This document shows, one piece after another, positions 51,478-60,564 of a stretch of DNA of 64,000 nucleotides. The DNA is from Candidatus Poribacteria bacterium (GTDB lineage: Bacteria > Poribacteria > WGA-4E > PCPOR2b): the NCBI GenBank assembly GCA_028819845.1, contig JAPPKS010000027.1, forward strand, positions 418,744 to 482,743, given 5' to 3'. Below the pieces are notes generated by a model. That model had not been told where the DNA came from and searched no databases. It was given only the letters and a program-made list of their open reading frames with translations. A program made the translations under genes and the position numbers. Every line of letters starts with the position of its first letter. The stretch's first letter is position 1.

Positions 51478-53232
51478 TCAACGCGTATCTCCGGTTTTCA
51501 TCTCACCCCATATGGTATTCAGCTTGTTCTGAGGAGTGACCGAGCGCGGGAGAGACGGATCTTGCCAATCCGGGTAACTGGCAGATTCGATGAATAGCTC
51601 AACGGATTCGGTGTCCAAGTCAAGCGTGTATATGCCATGTTCGTCACTGACGAGAATTGTATTCCCGTCCGGTGACCACGAGAGCCCTAGGTTCAATAAC
51701 GTTATCGGCAGGTCCGTCGGGATTATTCGTAGGAGCATTCCGTCAGTATCAATGATGGAGATGCCTAAGCGCCGTACCGGATTGTCGATTGGCTTTAGCG
51801 CTGAAAAGACAATGTCCTCCCCGTCGGGTGACGAATCCAGGGAACTCAGATTCCATACAGGCACATCTATTGAGTGGACTTCTCCTGTCTCCGTATCCAG
51901 AAAGGCGATTGCATTGTTGGTTCGACCAAAAACAATCTGAGACTCATCGTGTGACCAAGCAATTTCGTCAATAGGTTCGAGCAAATCTTCATACAACATT
52001 TGTAGGTTTATCCCATCGGGGTCAACCGTATAAATTCGGTGTGTCGGGTCTCCGCGTTCCGGGAGATTCACAAAAGCCAGTCTGTTCCCGCGCGGGGACC
52101 AGACAGGGTAGAGGTTGGCAACTGGCAAGTCAACCAGTTGAACCTCATTATCACCATCGGAATCAACCGCGTAAATCCTGACGCTGTTGTCCCCCATTAA
52201 CCGACTAAACGCTATTTTTTCTCCGTCAGGGGACCAAGTGGGAAACCCCTCATTCATGCCGCTCTTAGTCAGGTTTGTGATGTGCCCTCCATTGACAGTC
52301 ATTGAAAAGACATCTGAATTCCCGTCTCGGCTGGAAAGGAAGGCTAGCCGTTCTCCATCTGGAGACCAATCGGGGTGCGAATCGTAGCCAAGATGTGTTG
52401 TTAAGCGAGTTAGCTCCTTGGTTTCAAGGTTTAAAGCATAAATGTCCATGTTAAAGTTTCTCTCAGACACAAACGCAATTGACGATCCATCAGGAGAAAA
52501 TTTGGGATGTGAATTTGACTCCCCTTCAGCCACCAATACTTCCAATTCTGTACCATCTGGTTTCACTCGCCAAAGAAGAGTAGTCGACGGTGAGGTGTCA
52601 GACATGTCCGTAGAATAATACGCAATCAGTGACCCGTTCGGTGACCATTTGGGATTAAACGCAAATGATGATGAAGTGATGAGTCTTCGCCGGTTACCAG
52701 CCTGGGAATCAAGCACATAAACTTCTTTTGGGGCTAGACGATCCCGCTCAGAGGTAAATACAATCTTTTGGCTTGCCGGAGACCAGTGAGGCGATCCGTC
52801 GTGCAGAGGGGAATTATCGGTCATATTTATCGCGTTCGTCCCGTTTCTATTCATGATATAAATATCGAAATCACCGTCGCGGTTGGACGAAAATGCGATT
52901 CGTCTGCCGTCCGGGGACCATGTGGGATGAACGTCGTTCTTGGGCGAAAAGGTCAGTTGCCGGCGTTTGCCGGTGTTGAAGTCCAGCACAGCGATTTGGG
53001 ATACCCGATTAATCGTCGTGACATACGCCATTGATTTCCCATTCGGGGATAACGCTGGATGGCCGTCCGGTCCTTCGTCAAATGTAAGCCTCTTGGGTCT
53101 GCCGCCGGGGAAATACCTGTATATCTCACTGTTCCCGTCTCGGTCGGATACAAAGAGGATCTGCTCTTCCGCGTTAGCGTACAACGCAATGCAAGCGAGA
53201 CCTACGGTGAACATGGCAATGCGATAAATCAT
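51478..53232 (-). CDS. Exported TolB-like beta-propeller protein, copy 1
   Basis: A 584-residue protein with a signal peptide (about 1-22, ending YANA) followed by EEQILFVSDRDGN. The mature part is built from repeats of ~40 residues with the core WSPDG-x-x-IAF-x-S (WD40-like/PD40), enough for one or two propellers. Related repeats occur in TolB, but the protein lacks the TolB N-terminal domain and no tol-pal genes are near. The C-terminus bears the shared V-x-P-x-x-K-L tail motif. The ATG at 53232 has a GGAGGAGA site. A role in binding or as an extracellular scaffold is possible; the function is unknown. Confidence 0.85.
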   Translation of the reverse strand: MIYRIAMFTVGLACIALYANAEEQILFVSDRDGNSEIYRYFPGGRPKRLTFDEGPDGHPALSPNGKSMAYVTTINRVSQIAVLDFNTGKRRQLTFSPKNDVHPTWSPDGRRIAFSSNRDGDFDIYIMNRNGTNAINMTDNSPLHDGSPHWSPASQKIVFTSERDRLAPKEVYVLDSQAGNRRRLITSSSFAFNPKWSPNGSLIAYYSTDMSDTSPSTTLLWRVKPDGTELEVLVAEGESNSHPKFSPDGSSIAFVSERNFNMDIYALNLETKELTRLTTHLGYDSHPDWSPDGERLAFLSSRDGNSDVFSMTVNGGHITNLTKSGMNEGFPTWSPDGEKIAFSRLMGDNSVRIYAVDSDGDNEVQLVDLPVANLYPVWSPRGNRLAFVNLPERGDPTHRIYTVDPDGINLQMLYEDLLEPIDEIAWSHDESQIVFGRTNNAIAFLDTETGEVHSIDVPVWNLSSLDSSPDGEDIVFSALKPIDNPVRRLGISIIDTDGMLLRIIPTDLPITLLNLGLSWSPDGNTILVSDEHGIYTLDLDTESVELFIESASYPDWQDPSLPRSVTPQNKLNTIWGEMKTGDTR

Positions 53233-53401
53233 GCTGTATCTCTCCTCCAATAATTGAACTGAACGAGACGCAATGTAGGATTGAATTGGTTGGGGGGATT
53301 AACTGTAACCGAAGGTCGAGTCCAAAGTGTGTCAATGGCGTTATATAATCACTACCCGAATTCACGATCTCTTCGACCGATGACTGTGTTATTATGTATT
53401 A

Positions 53402-55159
53402 TCAGCGCGCTACAGGTTTTTTCATGTCGCCCCACATCGTTTTCAGCTTGTGTTGCGGAGTTACCGGCCGAGGTAGCGTCGGATCCTGCCAATTCGGATT
53501 ACTTGCGGATTCCATGAATAGCTCCATGGCTTCGGTATCCAGGTCAAGCGTGTATATGCCGTCTTCGCGGCCGACGAGAATCTTATTCCCGTCCGGCGAC
53601 CAAGCTAATCCAAGGTAAGTTATAGAACGCCCGTCCGTCATAATTGTTCGTAACGGATTCCCTTCGGGATCAATTATGTAGACGCCATCGCGCGGTTGAA
53701 ATGTTTCAGCCAATTCGGTGACCGCGGAAAAAGTGATGTTTTGACCGTGGCGCGACCAATTGGGGTCCTTGAAACCGATCACTGGTAGTTGCACCGTGCG
53801 AACTTCAAGGGTCACCGTGTCGAGAAAGACTATCCAAATGCCAGCTCGACTGAATATAATCTCAGTTCCGTCACTTGACCAAGTAATCCCTGAATCCCAC
53901 TCTTCCAACTGATCTTCATATAACACTTGTAGGTTTTGACCATCCGGGTCAACCGTAAATATTCGGAACATAGAATTTTTACGCTCTGGGTAATTCACAA
54001 AAGCGACTTTATCCCCTCGAGGCGACCATGACGGATACAGGTTGAAAAACGGCAAGTCGGCCAGTTTGATTTCGTTTTCACCAGTGCTGTCTATCACGAA
54101 AATCTTGGTACTGGTGTCCCCTAGCCGCCGGCTGAAAGCGATTTTTTCGCCGTCAGGAGACCAAGTCGGGTAGCCTTCAGATGTAACGCTCTTTGTCAAA
54201 TTGGTTAACTGCTCTCGTTCAAGGGTCATTGTGAAGATGTCGCGATTCCCGTCTCTGGTGGAAACAAAGGCGATTCGCTCGCCGTCTGGAGACCAATCAG
54301 GGTACGAGTCGTAGCCTAGGTGCACCGTTAAACGGGCTTCCTCATTAGTTTCGACGTTGAAAGCATAAATATCTGTATTTGAGTCTCTAGATGATACAAA
54401 CGCAATCCGCTTTCCATCCGGTGAGTATTTTGGGCGTGCGTTTCTGTCGGCGTCTGTTACTAATCTCTCCAAATCCGATCCATCCGCCTTCATGTGCCAA
54501 ATGGACCACGTTGACGGCTTCGACTCAGGGTATTCTGCCGATACGTAGGCGATCTGGGAACCGTTCGGCGACCATCTGGGATAAGTCGCACGGATGAATG
54601 AGTTTGTGAGTCTGCGTTGAACACGCGTATTTACATCAAGCAGATAGACTTCATCCACTCCTCCATCTCGATTGGAGGTAAACACAATTTTTGGGCCTGC
54701 TGGCGACCAATGCAGCCAACTATCGTCCCAACGGGAATTATCGGTCATGTTTGTCACGTTTTTGCCGTCGGCATCCATGATATATATATCGAAATCACCA
54801 TCTTCTTCTGAAGAGTAAGCGATGCGCTTTCCGTCCGGAGACCATGATGGATGGAAATTGCTCCTCGGCCAGCGCGAAAATGTAAGTTGCTCGCGTTCGC
54901 CGGATTCAAAGTCGAGGACGGCGATTTGATATACCCTATCAATAGTCGTGAAATACGCCATCTTCGTCCCATCGGGCGATAACGCGGGATGGCCGTCAGT
55001 TCCGGCGTTAAATGTGAGCCTTTCGGGTTCCCCGCCGGGAAATTGCCTGTATATCTCGGCATTTCTGATTTCTCCGGAAACGTACAATATCTGCTCTTCC
55101 GCACTCGCCAATAGTGCGGCGAAAGTGAGACCTACTGCAGCTAAAATGTAACGCATCAT
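53402..55159 (-). CDS. Exported TolB-like beta-propeller protein, copy 2
   Basis: A 585-residue paralogue of the neighbouring propellers, almost the same length and with the same plan: a signal peptide (MMRYILAAVGL..., cut after LASA), EEQILYVSG, repeats with WSPDG-x-x-IAF cores such as PDWSPDGERIAFVSTRDGN, and a C-terminal tail PVTPQHKLKTMWGDMK. The start is set by a GGGGGA site before ATG 55159; an open frame of 25 more codons lies upstream. The clear likeness in sequence and length shows tandem duplication. Confidence 0.85.
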   Translation of the reverse strand: MMRYILAAVGLTFAALLASAEEQILYVSGEIRNAEIYRQFPGGEPERLTFNAGTDGHPALSPDGTKMAYFTTIDRVYQIAVLDFESGEREQLTFSRWPRSNFHPSWSPDGKRIAYSSEEDGDFDIYIMDADGKNVTNMTDNSRWDDSWLHWSPAGPKIVFTSNRDGGVDEVYLLDVNTRVQRRLTNSFIRATYPRWSPNGSQIAYVSAEYPESKPSTWSIWHMKADGSDLERLVTDADRNARPKYSPDGKRIAFVSSRDSNTDIYAFNVETNEEARLTVHLGYDSYPDWSPDGERIAFVSTRDGNRDIFTMTLEREQLTNLTKSVTSEGYPTWSPDGEKIAFSRRLGDTSTKIFVIDSTGENEIKLADLPFFNLYPSWSPRGDKVAFVNYPERKNSMFRIFTVDPDGQNLQVLYEDQLEEWDSGITWSSDGTEIIFSRAGIWIVFLDTVTLEVRTVQLPVIGFKDPNWSRHGQNITFSAVTELAETFQPRDGVYIIDPEGNPLRTIMTDGRSITYLGLAWSPDGNKILVGREDGIYTLDLDTEAMELFMESASNPNWQDPTLPRPVTPQHKLKTMWGDMKKPVAR

Positions 55160-55293
55160 GACTATCCCCCTTTTACACAAGTTGTAACGGCAGAGTTGCG
55201 AATCATGAATCTCAATCTGTTTTGGATAATTCATGTAGAAAATTAGTTTTCCGATGAGGCTAGAGTACTGAAAATTGTGCCATGCGTATCATA

Positions 55294-57051
55294 TCAACGT
55301 CCTGCGCCCGTTTTCATATCGCCCCATGTCGTATTCAGTTTATTTCGAGGAGACACTGACCGAGGTTGAGTCGGATTCTGCCAATTGGGGTTGCTAGCGA
55401 ATTTGAGGAACAACGAAACGGTTTCGCTAACCAAGTCCAGTGTGTATAACCCTCCATGCTGACCCAAGAGCATCGCCTTCCCGTCGGGCGACCAAGCAAG
55501 TCCTTCGGCGTCTAATGGATGTGTGTCCACAATAATAGTTCGAACGGCGTTCCCGTCCTGATCGATGATGAAGACGCCGTGGCCCGCGTCAAAGCTTACA
55601 ATTGGCGGAGGAAACGCCGTAAAAGTAATGTCTTGACCGTCAGGTGACCAATCGGGAGAATTTGGCGAGTGCACCGGTATATCAACGGTGTGAACTTCAA
55701 GGGTCACCGTGTTGACAGCGGTGATTGGACTGCGGATAGGACTGAAAATAATCTGAGTCCCATCACCGGACCACGCCATCTGCCTAATCCGTTTGTCCTG
55801 GTTTTTGTGAATCGCTTGTAGGTTTTTCCCGTTTGGGTCAACTATATAAACCAGAGACTTTCGCTCTCCTCGTTCCGGACGATTCACAAAGGCGATTTTG
55901 TTACCTAGCGGGGACCACGCGGGAAAATCGTTGTTGGCGGGCAAAGCGGCTAACTCGACTTCGTTCTCGCCATTGCTATCTATAATGTAAATCCTGGAGC
56001 TGTCGTCCCCCATCCACCGCGTGAACGCGATTTTTTCTCCGTCAGGGGACCAGGTGGGGTGGTATTCAGACAGGCCGTTTTTTGTCAGATTGGTTATCTG
56101 CTGTCCATTGACGGTCATGGTGAAGATGTCCGGGTTGCCGTCTCGGCTGGAAACGAAGGCGAACCGTTCTCCGTCGGGAGACCAACTGGGGTATGAGTCG
56201 TCCCCGAGGTGGGTCGTTAAACGGATAACCTCCCGTGATTCTAGATTCAATGCGTAAATGTCGGTGTTAAAGTCCCGATAAGATTCAAATGCAATCCACT
56301 TTCCGTCTGGAGAGTATCTGGGACTCCTATTGCCGCCGCCGTCAGTCACTAACGGCTCCGCATCCGTACCATCCGCCTTCGCGCGCCAAATCTCTGAAGT
56401 CGACAGCGGGGGTTCAAACGGCTTCGTCGAAAAATAGGCAATCTGAGAACCGTTCGGCGACCAACGTGGATAAGCTACTGGGTTGATCGAAGACGTGAGT
56501 CTTCGCCGATCGCCGGTCCGCACATCAAGTAGATTGACATCTTCCGCGACCCATCCATCTGGATAAGAGACAAATACAATTTTCTCGCTCACCGGTGACC
56601 AATGGGGTGAGTTTTCGTGCAGAGGCGAATCGTCGGTCAAATTTGTCGCGTTTTGTCCGTTTTCATCCATGATATAAATATCGAAATCGCCATCTGCATC
56701 TGAAGCGTAAGCGATTCGACTTCCGTCCGGCGACCAGGTTGGGTGGAGATTGCTCTTGTGCAAGGGTGAAAAAGTTAATTGCTGGCGTTTGCCAGACCTG
56801 AAGTCAAGGACAGCGATTTCGAGAATCCCCCCGATTCTCGGGACATACGCCATCTTTTTCCCATCGGGCGACAACGCCGGATAATAATCACCGCCCTCAT
56901 CGAATGTAAGTCTCTGAGTCCTGACACCGGGAAAATGCCTGTAAATCTCATCGTTCGCATGTCGGTTTGACTCGAACAGAATTTGCTCTTCAGCGTTCGC
57001 TAACAATGCCGCGAACGCAATACCTATCGCAATCACAAGGCAATGTCTCAT
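55294..57051 (-). CDS. Exported TolB-like beta-propeller protein, copy 3
   Basis: A 585-residue paralogue with a signal peptide (RHCLVIAIGIAFAALLANA), EEQILFESNRH after cleavage, the same propeller repeats (for example PSWSPDGERFAFVSSRDGN) and the tail SVSPRNKLNTTWGDMK. A GGGG site precedes the ATG. It lies 13 bases downstream of the lipoprotein gene on the same strand, so those two genes form an operon. Confidence 0.85.
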   Translation of the reverse strand: MRHCLVIAIGIAFAALLANAEEQILFESNRHANDEIYRHFPGVRTQRLTFDEGGDYYPALSPDGKKMAYVPRIGGILEIAVLDFRSGKRQQLTFSPLHKSNLHPTWSPDGSRIAYASDADGDFDIYIMDENGQNATNLTDDSPLHENSPHWSPVSEKIVFVSYPDGWVAEDVNLLDVRTGDRRRLTSSINPVAYPRWSPNGSQIAYFSTKPFEPPLSTSEIWRAKADGTDAEPLVTDGGGNRSPRYSPDGKWIAFESYRDFNTDIYALNLESREVIRLTTHLGDDSYPSWSPDGERFAFVSSRDGNPDIFTMTVNGQQITNLTKNGLSEYHPTWSPDGEKIAFTRWMGDDSSRIYIIDSNGENEVELAALPANNDFPAWSPLGNKIAFVNRPERGERKSLVYIVDPNGKNLQAIHKNQDKRIRQMAWSGDGTQIIFSPIRSPITAVNTVTLEVHTVDIPVHSPNSPDWSPDGQDITFTAFPPPIVSFDAGHGVFIIDQDGNAVRTIIVDTHPLDAEGLAWSPDGKAMLLGQHGGLYTLDLVSETVSLFLKFASNPNWQNPTQPRSVSPRNKLNTTWGDMKTGAGR

Positions 57052-57064
57052 AACCGTATACCCC

Positions 57065-57847
57065 TTAAAACGCTGTCTTGATGCGTCCCCACGTTGACGC
57101 TAGCTTATCAATGGGATTGACTGCAACTTCAAGCTTGATGCCTTCGTTGAATACAAGCATCTCTTGCACGTCAAATGCGTCATCTAGCCAATTGGTAATC
57201 CGCCACTCCTCCTCATGGAATTCAAAGGTAAAACGCGCATCTCCTTCGGCATACCATGCCAGAAATCCGCCTTCTAAAGCGTGGCCATCATTCGCAAACG
57301 CTTGGACACGATAATGCGTCACAGCTTCTATTCGTTCGGGCGTTGCATTTATGATTCGAGCCGGTCGGAAAATCTGCAATCCAATATCTTGGAAATGTGC
57401 AAACACTCTCCTCGCAGATTCGCCTTCGGTCTTGAGTTCATCAAAGATTACATCGTCGAATCGATCGTGGGGGGTTGCCATATCGGAAGTGTACCGGAAT
57501 CCATCAATCCAAAACGCACTCAGATACAGGTGTATGTCTTCCTTTTCGTAACCGTCTCGCATGCGTTCCAATACTCCGTCGATTGCGTCCTGGATAGGTT
57601 CTACACCGGGTTCCACCACCTCTGCCTCTGGGGGCACAATTTCCTCGACTAAATCTGGATTTTGGACATGTTCCTCCACAGGATCAGGTACCGCAATGTT
57701 GTCCTCGTCCGGAACGCCTGCCTCAACTTTAAGACTCTCAGTCGGCGACATAACAACGTCTATTGACGGTTCGTCTTCGTCATCGCCGCAACTCAGTATC
57801 AGACTCATAAGGCATAGGGATACGATGCAAAACATATTCAGTCTCAT
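57065..57847 (-). CDS. NTF2-like lipoprotein with shared C-terminal tail
   Basis: A 260-residue predicted lipoprotein. The signal ends in the lipobox SLILSC, and acidic residues (GDDEDE) follow the Cys. A Pro/Glu/Val-rich linker (about 30-80) leads to a SnoaL/NTF2-like domain (about 85-225) containing LERMRDGYEKEDIHLYLSAF and a FEFHEEEWRITNW strand pair. The last 20 residues hold VNPIDKLASTWGRIK, the same motif as at the ends of the neighbouring propellers, although the folds are unrelated. The ATG at 57847 follows AAGGAGAG. Its function is unknown. Confidence 0.78.
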   Translation of the reverse strand: MRLNMFCIVSLCLMSLILSCGDDEDEPSIDVVMSPTESLKVEAGVPDEDNIAVPDPVEEHVQNPDLVEEIVPPEAEVVEPGVEPIQDAIDGVLERMRDGYEKEDIHLYLSAFWIDGFRYTSDMATPHDRFDDVIFDELKTEGESARRVFAHFQDIGLQIFRPARIINATPERIEAVTHYRVQAFANDGHALEGGFLAWYAEGDARFTFEFHEEEWRITNWLDDAFDVQEMLVFNEGIKLEVAVNPIDKLASTWGRIKTAF

Positions 57848-57921
57848 TTGTGGCTCTCCTTGGATCTGATTGGAATCTCTGTTCTCCTTAGTGGAGTCTG
57901 ATCGCATGAATCATCAAGGCG

Positions 57922-59868
57922 CTAGCGTTTTTTCAGTTCAGCCCATGTTGAAATCCGTTTTCCGCTGGGGTTCACGGCATACACATAGCCCGGCTTGACC
58001 CAATCCGCATCGCCCGCGTCTTTCATCCATAAGCTGGCGTTTTCATTCATGGTATCAATCAGATATAGCCTATTTTCCTGTTGAGTGCCTACCCGTTTCC
58101 GCTCGATTGACAACAAGAGATGTGAGCGGTCTGGCGCCCACACTAACCGGCGAAAATTCCATTCTGATTTAAAATCTAAGTGGTCAATGCCCCTAAGAAA
58201 AATCTCCCTTTGTACCGAAGTATTGGGGTTGGTCAAGTATAGCGCAAGCATTTGATCGGCAAAGAAAGGGCCGTCTTCATTCCTTTGCGCACTGAAGAGG
58301 AGGCTGTTTCCGTCCGGCGACCAAACAGGGCTCCACCAGAATTCTATTCCGTCAGTGTTTAACTGGGTTGGCAAGCCTCCTTCAGTTTGAATTCGCATTA
58401 GACCGACATTATCGTTTGCTTCAGGGTCGACATAAATGAGGTTCTGACTATCGGGCGACCACGCAGGGCGGAACATAGCCCGACCATCAAGTTGATTCAC
58501 TTTCGAACGTAAAATGGGCGTTTCCTTGAGGCCTTGTGGGTCGATGCGATAAAGCCCCCAACTGTCTTTATCGCCAGACGCGAATGCTATCCATTTGCCA
58601 TCCGGCGACCAAGCCGGCGCCCCGACGAATTCGCGTTGGATTTCCGTGATTTGTTGGACGTTTTCGCCGTCGCGGTCCATCGTATAGATTTGCCTCGCGC
58701 CGTCACGATCTGATAGGAAGACGATTTTTTCCCCATCCGGAGACCAGAATGGAGCTGCATTTAATCCGAGTTCAAACGTCAATTGCTGTGGATTTTTACC
58801 GGTCTCATTCATCACGAAGATTGTGCTATTACGCTCTTCGGTTAATCTCGCGTAGACAATCTCGCTTCCGTCAGGCGACCAGTGTGCAGTTCCTTCATGT
58901 TCCGGCGACTGCGTCAAATTTGTCATATTTTTTCCATTGGCGTCCATGACATAGATGTCATTCGATTCAGCTTCTTGATCGAATGGTAAAGCGGCGAACA
59001 GAAATTTCAACCCATCCGGACTCCAAGCCAGCGGTATACTGTGCATCGTTTTTTCAGATGTTAACGCCGCAGCGCTGCCATCAGCCAGGTTCATCGAATA
59101 AATTTGAATCGGATTGGGCGCAGTGCGGTTGATTTCAATTAACGTGACGTAGGCAATTTCGCGCTGACTCGGCGACCATGCAGGGATTGTATTGACGTGA
59201 ACAGACGACGCATCGGTCAAGAATTCGAGTTCTCTTTGCCTTACCTCGATGACGTTGTTCCCCTTGTCGTCAGTAATAAATAGCCTGTCGTGAAGACGCC
59301 CCTCATCTTCTTGGCTAAATATAATGCGCCGGCCATCGGGCGACCAACTGGGATTCGAAATACGAGTCGGTAGGTCCGGTTGAAGAATATGCCGTATGTC
59401 GTGAGTGTTCATATTCACTACGCTAAGGTATGTTTGATCGCCGCCTTGTGCACCTATTGACGTGATAAAGAGGATTTGTTGTCCATCGGGCGACCAATCG
59501 AGATCGGTGAATCTGGCATCCCATTCGGCATTGCCCGTCAGTTTTTCAACTCGATCGGCTGCGATGTGCAATTTGAAAATATCCGATTGTCCTCCCGGTG
59601 GACTGGACACAAAGGCGACCTCAGCACCGTCAGGTGAAATTGTGGGCGAACTTACGAACATATTGCGCGTGAGTTGAGTCGGATTGCCGTCCAATCCTTC
59701 AACTAGAAACATATCGGGTGTTACGCCGAGGTCGGAAACATACACGATTTTGTCGGCGAAATTAATCGCTTGTACCGAACACGGGATGAATAGCAGCACC
59801 GCCGTAGCGATCCTGGTAACGAAACGGATGTAAACAACCTTCGGTCGAGAAATGGGGCGAACGCTCAT
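57922..59868 (-). CDS. Exported TolB-like beta-propeller protein, copy 4 (divergent)
   Basis: A 648-residue protein, the most divergent of the four. The N-terminus has a signal-like segment (IATAVLLFIPCSVQA) followed by INFADKIVYVSDLG. Many repeats with WSPDG cores follow, such as PFWSPDGEKIVFLSDRDG. The tail is VNPSGKRISTWAELKKR. ATG 59868 has a GGAGG site; an upstream ATG would add seven codons. It is first in the minus-strand block, 74 bases before the lipoprotein gene, and may lead one transcript through copy 3. Confidence 0.83.
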   Translation of the reverse strand: MSVRPISRPKVVYIRFVTRIATAVLLFIPCSVQAINFADKIVYVSDLGVTPDMFLVEGLDGNPTQLTRNMFVSSPTISPDGAEVAFVSSPPGGQSDIFKLHIAADRVEKLTGNAEWDARFTDLDWSPDGQQILFITSIGAQGGDQTYLSVVNMNTHDIRHILQPDLPTRISNPSWSPDGRRIIFSQEDEGRLHDRLFITDDKGNNVIEVRQRELEFLTDASSVHVNTIPAWSPSQREIAYVTLIEINRTAPNPIQIYSMNLADGSAAALTSEKTMHSIPLAWSPDGLKFLFAALPFDQEAESNDIYVMDANGKNMTNLTQSPEHEGTAHWSPDGSEIVYARLTEERNSTIFVMNETGKNPQQLTFELGLNAAPFWSPDGEKIVFLSDRDGARQIYTMDRDGENVQQITEIQREFVGAPAWSPDGKWIAFASGDKDSWGLYRIDPQGLKETPILRSKVNQLDGRAMFRPAWSPDSQNLIYVDPEANDNVGLMRIQTEGGLPTQLNTDGIEFWWSPVWSPDGNSLLFSAQRNEDGPFFADQMLALYLTNPNTSVQREIFLRGIDHLDFKSEWNFRRLVWAPDRSHLLLSIERKRVGTQQENRLYLIDTMNENASLWMKDAGDADWVKPGYVYAVNPSGKRISTWAELKKR

Positions 59869-60564
59869 CAGACTTACCTCCGTACTCAATTGGGAAATGG
59901 AATTACTTTAAGGTAGGATTGCTCCGCAACGCTTCGGAGCGGAGATTTCTATTGCTTGGTAAAAAGCAATTTAGATGCCAACGCCAAATCTCTTTAATTA
60001 TCGGGCTATTTCTAGTAGTGGGTGAGGTTATGCAGGAGAGAACTGTTGTAGCAGTGATACAAAGGTGTAGCACACGCGTCACAGTCACAATCGGGAAATT
60101 AGAACGTGTTTGTCCACCGGCGAGATTTCTGATTGTGGGATTAAGGGCGGGGTGTTAATTTCGAACCCTCTAGCTCCCCCTATAACAAGCTTACTATTAC
60201 CCACAAGTCTCTGGAGTGAGACATCCTCTATGTTGGGGCTAAGAACGATTGCTCATTTCGGTATGGTGTAAACTGTGTGAGGGACATCCCTGTCCCGATA
60301 ATCAGGGCTAGGAAGCCCTTCCCACAAGTGCTTCACAACACGGTTACGTCAAGAATAAGGCGAGAAAACCCGTACCATATCCGACTTTGCGGACTTGTGT
60401 GAAATAGTAAGCTTAGCAAGGGGGAGGATGAAATGTTCCATTTGGAAGCGTCGACTTGGAACGCAGGAGTGCTAATCTCGTTCCTTCTAGCTTCCCGTTA
60501 GAAACGTGGAGGAGGTTAAGTGGTTAATTCAAGCAGTAAGCAGCGCCGCCGACCTAGATTTTCA
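59869..60564. other. Repeat-rich 700-base region without genes
   Basis: No coding frame is convincing. The stretch holds a 256-base inverted-repeat element (60172-60427), two nested hairpins within it, and a degenerate direct repeat: the ~40 bases at 60145-60185 resemble 60459-60500 (both have a TTAAT/CTAAT core then TCG, CCTTCTAGCT/CCCTCTAGCT). It looks like decayed mobile sequence next to the recombinase gene. Confidence 0.5.
60172..60427. mobile_element. MITE-like element with imperfect inverted termini
   Basis: The segment 60187-60210 is the reverse complement of 60391-60414 at 21 of 24 positions, including a perfect 12-base block AAGCTTACTATT. Outside it, CTCCCCCT and AGGGGGAG also pair. 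The ends thus form inverted repeats of about 36 bases around a 180-base centre with no gene. Two hairpins lie inside: GGGACA-TCCC-TGTCCC and AGGGCT-AGGA-AGCCCT (around 60283-60321). Size and structure suit a non-autonomous element or a structured RNA. No target-site duplication was established. Confidence 0.4.

Follow-up and report, generated by a model that had tools for sequence, protein, structure and literature searches.

Type IX cargo normally requires a C-terminal domain (CTD) of 70–100 residues. In its type A form (TIGR04183/PF18962) this is an Ig-like domain of that size with motifs A–E, which acts as the signal at the C-terminus of Sec-exported proteins with many different folds, and PorU takes the sorting domain off the cargo after export (PMC10202324). 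The type B and C domains, of about 100 residues, together with the PorP/SprF-like shuttles, provide a precedent for signal classes with different shuttles (PMC12618676, PMC10202324), and it is established that shuttles differ in the signal class they read (PMC12618676). Other C-terminal labels, such as the PEP-CTERM, exosortase, rhombosortase and LPXTG signals, consist of a short conserved signature on large exported families; those of the PEP-CTERM/LPXTG type are tripartite, combining a motif, a transmembrane helix and a basic cluster. Cellulosomal dockerins are C-terminal modules with a 60-residue calcium-binding fold that attach enzymes as well as binding proteins to a scaffold on the surface.

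Candidatus Poribacteria, which are uncultured, live in abundance as symbionts in marine sponges. A 2014 single-cell study described TIGR04183 domains in Poribacteria and reported the Por structural genes as absent (PMC3909097), and according to a 2023 review the type IX system is strictly confined to the Bacteroidota (PMC10202324). A search of the literature on Poribacteria and type IX secretion found no paper reporting the apparatus in the phylum.

The poribacterial tag described here has 15 residues and a few more. It resembles the type A CTD in its C-terminal place on Sec-exported proteins of many folds in the same genomes, but it contains none of the motifs A–E and is far shorter, and the type B and C domains are unrelated to it in sequence. 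With the PEP-CTERM, exosortase, rhombosortase and LPXTG signals it shares a short conserved C-terminal signature and large exported families, but it has no transmembrane helix, LPXTG or PEP; only 1–14 residues remain after the motif, and the helix and basic cluster are absent from them. If its role is docking, it would be comparable to a dockerin as a C-terminal docking element, although it is a short flexible peptide and not a 60-residue fold. Judged from the sequences, the tag has the appearance of a cell-surface label for sorting or docking that has not been described before.

The window, meaning the whole stretch of DNA analysed, comprises 64,000 nt of contig JAPPKS010000027.1 from the Candidatus Poribacteria bacterium assembly GCA_028819845.1. 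An earlier note had described five ORFs at 51478-59889, on the minus strand, as sharing the tail V-x-P-x-x-K-[LR]-x-[ST]-x-W-[GA]-x-[MIL]-K, and on re-reading all five match. The first is an exported PD40 beta-propeller (51478..53250, minus strand, with a likely ATG start near 53232) whose tag, VTPQNKLNTIWGEMK (51496..51540, minus strand), is followed by five residues. The second propeller (53402..55234, minus strand, likely start near 55159) carries VTPQHKLKTMWGDMK (53420..53464, minus strand) and the third (55294..57051, minus strand) carries VSPRNKLNTTWGDMK (55312..55356, minus strand), both exported and both with five residues after the tag. A lipoprotein-like exported protein (57065..57907, minus strand, likely start 57847) ends in VNPIDKLASTWGRIK (57077..57121, minus strand) and three more residues, and the fourth exported propeller (57922..59889, minus strand) in VNPSGKRISTWAELK (57931..57975, minus strand) and two more. 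The two to five residues that had been counted beyond the last Lys are therefore found as 5, 5, 5, 3 and 2.

The assignment of four of the five proteins as propellers is borne out by PD40 matches in all four. Signal peptides, claimed for all five, are visible in each sequence; a crude signal-peptide rule missed the protein at 57922-59889, in which a hydrophobic stretch ending in CSVQA is plain by eye. The fifth protein had been called an NTF2-like lipoprotein of a different fold, which holds in part: it is considered not to be a propeller because it has a lipobox-like start (LILSC) and no Pfam or NCBIfam match, while its single-sequence AlphaFold model (pLDDT 37) is too poor to confirm an NTF2 fold. 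Close relatives of this protein were sought in the GTDB contigs, and none was found.

The motif was observed five times in the window proteins against 8.6e-7 expected, and a chance origin of the five tails is ruled out by this excess over about 1e-6 expected occurrences in the window. Three of the four propellers are close paralogs, so that the window alone offers about three independent instances of the tag; this concern is removed by the genome-wide and phylum-wide counts given below. No further copy was found elsewhere in the window in any frame. The latter result bears on the proposal that the tagged proteins stay in the periplasm, where the tag would act as a retention, folding-quality or protease-recognition signal for a periplasmic chaperone or protease. 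Such a role would suit proteins with Sec signal peptides and no CTD, and short hydrophobic C-termini are classical recognition sites of periplasmic proteases. However, a degradation signal would be much less specific than this motif, no other window gene is tagged, including the BamA-like (33827) and Skp/OmpH-like (36265) genes, and copies in front of CTDs are present in type IX cargo (see below). This explanation is considered improbable.

A profile of the five tails matched 105 places in the 4.6 Mb genome to which the window belongs. After the matched regions had been fetched, about 124 genes with a C-terminal tag were counted, the gene calls there being a greedy choice of ORFs made without a gene finder. 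The consensus of 111 aligned tails is V (107), P (89), K (96), L (70), T (67), T (65), W (111), G/A (106), L/I (92) and K (109), with 1–14 residues beyond the last Lys, most commonly three. The strict motif occurs 25 times across all fetched genes, each time at the C-terminus (25/25), and shuffled proteins give about 0.2 matches per set at the same score. Of the own-genome matches away from the C-terminus, each immediately precedes a type IX sorting domain and stands 95 residues before the end of the protein, with the exception of one weak match at 18 residues. Tagged genes often stand together, 74 of the 124 being in runs of two or more.

By a simple rule, a signal-peptide-like start was found in 111 of 120 tagged genes, compared with 100 of 402 untagged ones. 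In most of the nine tagged genes missed by the rule, inspection reveals a signal peptide, and probably one or two of the nine are false tags. The Pfam matches of 122 tagged proteins comprise LamG (73), PD40 (30), DUF1080 (5), cohesin (2) and others. No clear model of the tail itself was found in Pfam or NCBIfam, and NCBIfam returned no sorting-signal model for the 122 proteins save one weak PACE-CTERM match. Common ancestry of the host domains, already set aside in the earlier note, is rejected because the tag sits on several unrelated folds. That note had also named random positions, or a spread limited to propellers, as outcomes that would speak against a tag; the matches are not random in position, and LamG, DUF1080 and cohesin proteins are tagged as well.

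Beyond this genome, the tag is present in all 85 Poribacteria genomes (E<=0.01), with 29 to at least 105 matches each, and in none of 61 genomes outside the phylum at E<0.05. In line with the support that the earlier note had asked for, the five-tail profile finds C-termini of signal-peptide proteins with unrelated folds in both the own and related genomes; the folds elsewhere in the phylum include kelch, CBM9, F5/8-C and DUF4960. A strict DNA pattern run over all GTDB contigs retrieved 70 stretches, 68 of them titled Candidatus or uncultured Poribacteria, and its in-frame matches reach a stop within 0–7 residues in 78 of 78 cases. The name of the phylum is taken from these titles of the records. 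The two remaining stretches, L207 and L228 (JAFDHL010000343.1 and JACNGQ010000398.1), come from bins labelled Deltaproteobacteria and Planctomycetota. Since the whole genomes of these bins hold only 1 and 2 tags and both contigs are short, they are probably misbinned Poribacteria DNA. The tag is specific to the phylum Candidatus Poribacteria, and it provides a sequence-only route to listing the surface or exported repertoire, which amounts to about 30 to more than 100 proteins per genome.

It is the protein that is conserved at the tag, and not the DNA. For the conserved V, P, K, L, T, G and K of the tag, codons are used at approximately the background frequencies of the genome, and a DNA or RNA element as the cause of the conservation was rejected because codon choice follows the genome. 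In a model of a tagged LamG protein built from 34 sequences, the domain is confident, whereas pLDDT falls below 50 at residues 235-256, where the model shows a marginal short helix; that this alignment has no variation in the tag columns follows from the pattern used for selection. As the tag falls below pLDDT 50 in an otherwise confident model, it is placed outside the fold, and the modelling points to a cause other than the fold for its conservation. In a search of the PDB, the tag matched designed or repeat proteins only in part and over short lengths, and these matches were regarded as spurious.

The relation of the tag to type IX secretion is seen in the cargo itself. The own genome has about 50 TIGR04183 type A CTD matches, most of them over the cut-off, and the tag lies immediately upstream of the CTD in 12 of the 33 sorting-domain contexts examined, for example as AVEPSEKLSTSLGNIKRTALLQ followed by NYPNPFNPETWIPYQL. 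Across the phylum, 41 copies in front of CTDs share a common register (V -10, P -8, K -5, T -1, G +1, K +4). Their Trp position is occupied by L (37) or F (4) and never by W (0/41), in a set whose loci from other genomes were picked by a profile containing L/F and most of whose own-genome loci came from the CTD search, with no L/F profile. In terminal tags, with this position left free in the search, Trp is found in 113 of 113. A kelch protein at L279:10378-11451 may be an exception, with a tag-like end that has L in place of W and ten residues after it.

The tagged proteins as such are not CTD proteins. The five of the window gave no match to TIGR04183; the 122 tagged proteins gave four matches, which were not placed one by one; and the matches of a local CTD profile to tagged genes were weak, with E 0.5 or worse, and fell within a propeller. 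None of the tagged genes carries a CTD of its own or overlaps one, and the tag as a truncated CTD with remnants was rejected on this ground. The earlier statement that the tail is unlike the type IX CTD is correct for a tail of 15–20 residues without a CTD match, but it missed the link, given that the motif abuts the CTDs in a subset of the cargo. Among the sorting-domain proteins, one at L278:4743-6701 combines FGE-sulfatase, dockerin and type IX sorting domains in a single protein.

The terminal tags stop where a CTD would begin, in the same register, which would also be expected of a functionless relic, that is, a preceding linker left behind after loss of the type IX CTD. A relic should decay, yet Trp is constant in the terminal tags and absent before CTDs, and the motif is kept in about 120 proteins of several folds and in all genomes of the phylum. 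An origin of the tag from the linker in front of CTDs is possible; its lack of function is disfavoured, and the relic explanation as a whole is very improbable.

The earlier note had suggested looking for a co-occurring translocon or transpeptidase, and a putative translocon of the type IX kind (SprA-like) and a sortase (PorU) are both present in the phylum. In the own genome (C12), a SprA/Sov-like protein of 2188 aa (L093:9439-16005) matches TIGR04189 with E 5e-47, at 160 bits against the curated 200, and a SprA-like ORF of about 2200 aa with PF14349 matches is found in nearly all genomes of the phylum. Two C25 proteins, of 2092 and 2116 aa, score 426 and 366 bits with the PorU model NF033707 (426.3 bits against a cut-off of 420 for the better one), and both have a CTD-like end. 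There are nine PorV-family genes (L182, L187-L194), eight of them over the NF033709 cut-off; the own-genome matches to the PorV equivalog model NF033710 stay below its cut-off. The family is over cut-off in 30 of 30 relatives. The GldM/PorM motor (TIGR03517) gave one weak match among 118 genomes and none in the own genome. Since tag and apparatus are both nearly universal within the phylum, their co-occurrence carries little statistical weight. Genomes outside the phylum with SprA and C25 peptidases are without the tag, so the tag is not a general requirement of type IX secretion.

The two PorU/C25 proteins of about 2100 aa would also suit a cleavable C-terminal propeptide, with a C25 or other sortase transferring the protein to a lipid or glycan and no membrane anchor involved. 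The strict C-terminal position of the tag agrees with this. Nevertheless, no conserved site of a cleavage type was recognised and the conserved part stops so close to the end that hardly anything would be cut off; a propeptide is regarded as quite improbable.

C-terminal matches, signal peptides, unrelated folds and non-random positions together make a sorting or docking tag the leading explanation. The claim of a sorting, anchoring or docking tag recognised by a common partner is in part sustained by the scans, which identified no partner. In the proposed form, which is given about an even chance of being right, the tail would serve Poribacteria as a C-terminal tag dedicated to sorting or docking, and a shared partner in a type IX-like apparatus would recognise it once outside the cytoplasm. 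The carriers are seen as small Sec-exported proteins, mostly of sugar-binding or propeller type, with the signal peptide at one end and the tag at the other, strictly C-terminal and independent of the host fold. In large cargo, removal of the sorting domain would leave the tag in front of it as the C-terminus of the mature protein, and the short-tag proteins would be made from the start with an end that matches processed cargo. A shared end of this kind suggests one reader for both. Because shuttles read different signal classes, a PorV-family shuttle or the PorU attachment complex are the obvious candidates for that reader, and the cell surface would be the destination.

A bolder version holds that the 15-residue peptide alone sends small proteins through the type IX apparatus, or attaches them via it, with a PorV-family reader and a single Trp setting it apart from the copy in front of CTDs. 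It is put forward only tentatively. Against a type IX-linked tag stands the fact that the short-tag proteins have no CTD of 70–100 residues. If the tag were itself a type IX signal, it would be far shorter than the known signals of this length and a simple handle for surface display. More broadly, the tag connects the surface or exported repertoire with type IX secretion, a system whose structural genes the phylum had been reported to lack (PMC3909097).

A purely post-export role fits the data almost as well as a shared reader. The tag would then be a docking peptide, a kind of mini-dockerin for a surface scaffold or the outer membrane, and secretion would follow another route. The motif is either terminal or just before a removable CTD, and on this account it precedes the CTD because it is needed on the mature protein. 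A flexible peptide outside the fold, with a possible short helix, would be suited to docking; most of the hosts have folds that bind carbohydrate, and cohesin domains occur in two tagged proteins and a dockerin in one CTD protein. On the other hand, docking leaves unexplained how small tagged proteins without a CTD cross the outer membrane, and no scaffold candidate was found. Taken together, this role is possible but rather unlikely.

Regarding the genomic surroundings of the apparatus, several genomes have a C25 gene at about 4 kb from a PorV-family gene. PorV-gene neighbourhoods were dropped as a pointer to the partner, with a tagged gene close by in only 1 of 9. Beside the SprA-like gene of the own genome stand two ECF sigma factors fused to WD40 or leucine-rich repeats (L093:7476-9149 and L093:5859-7436).
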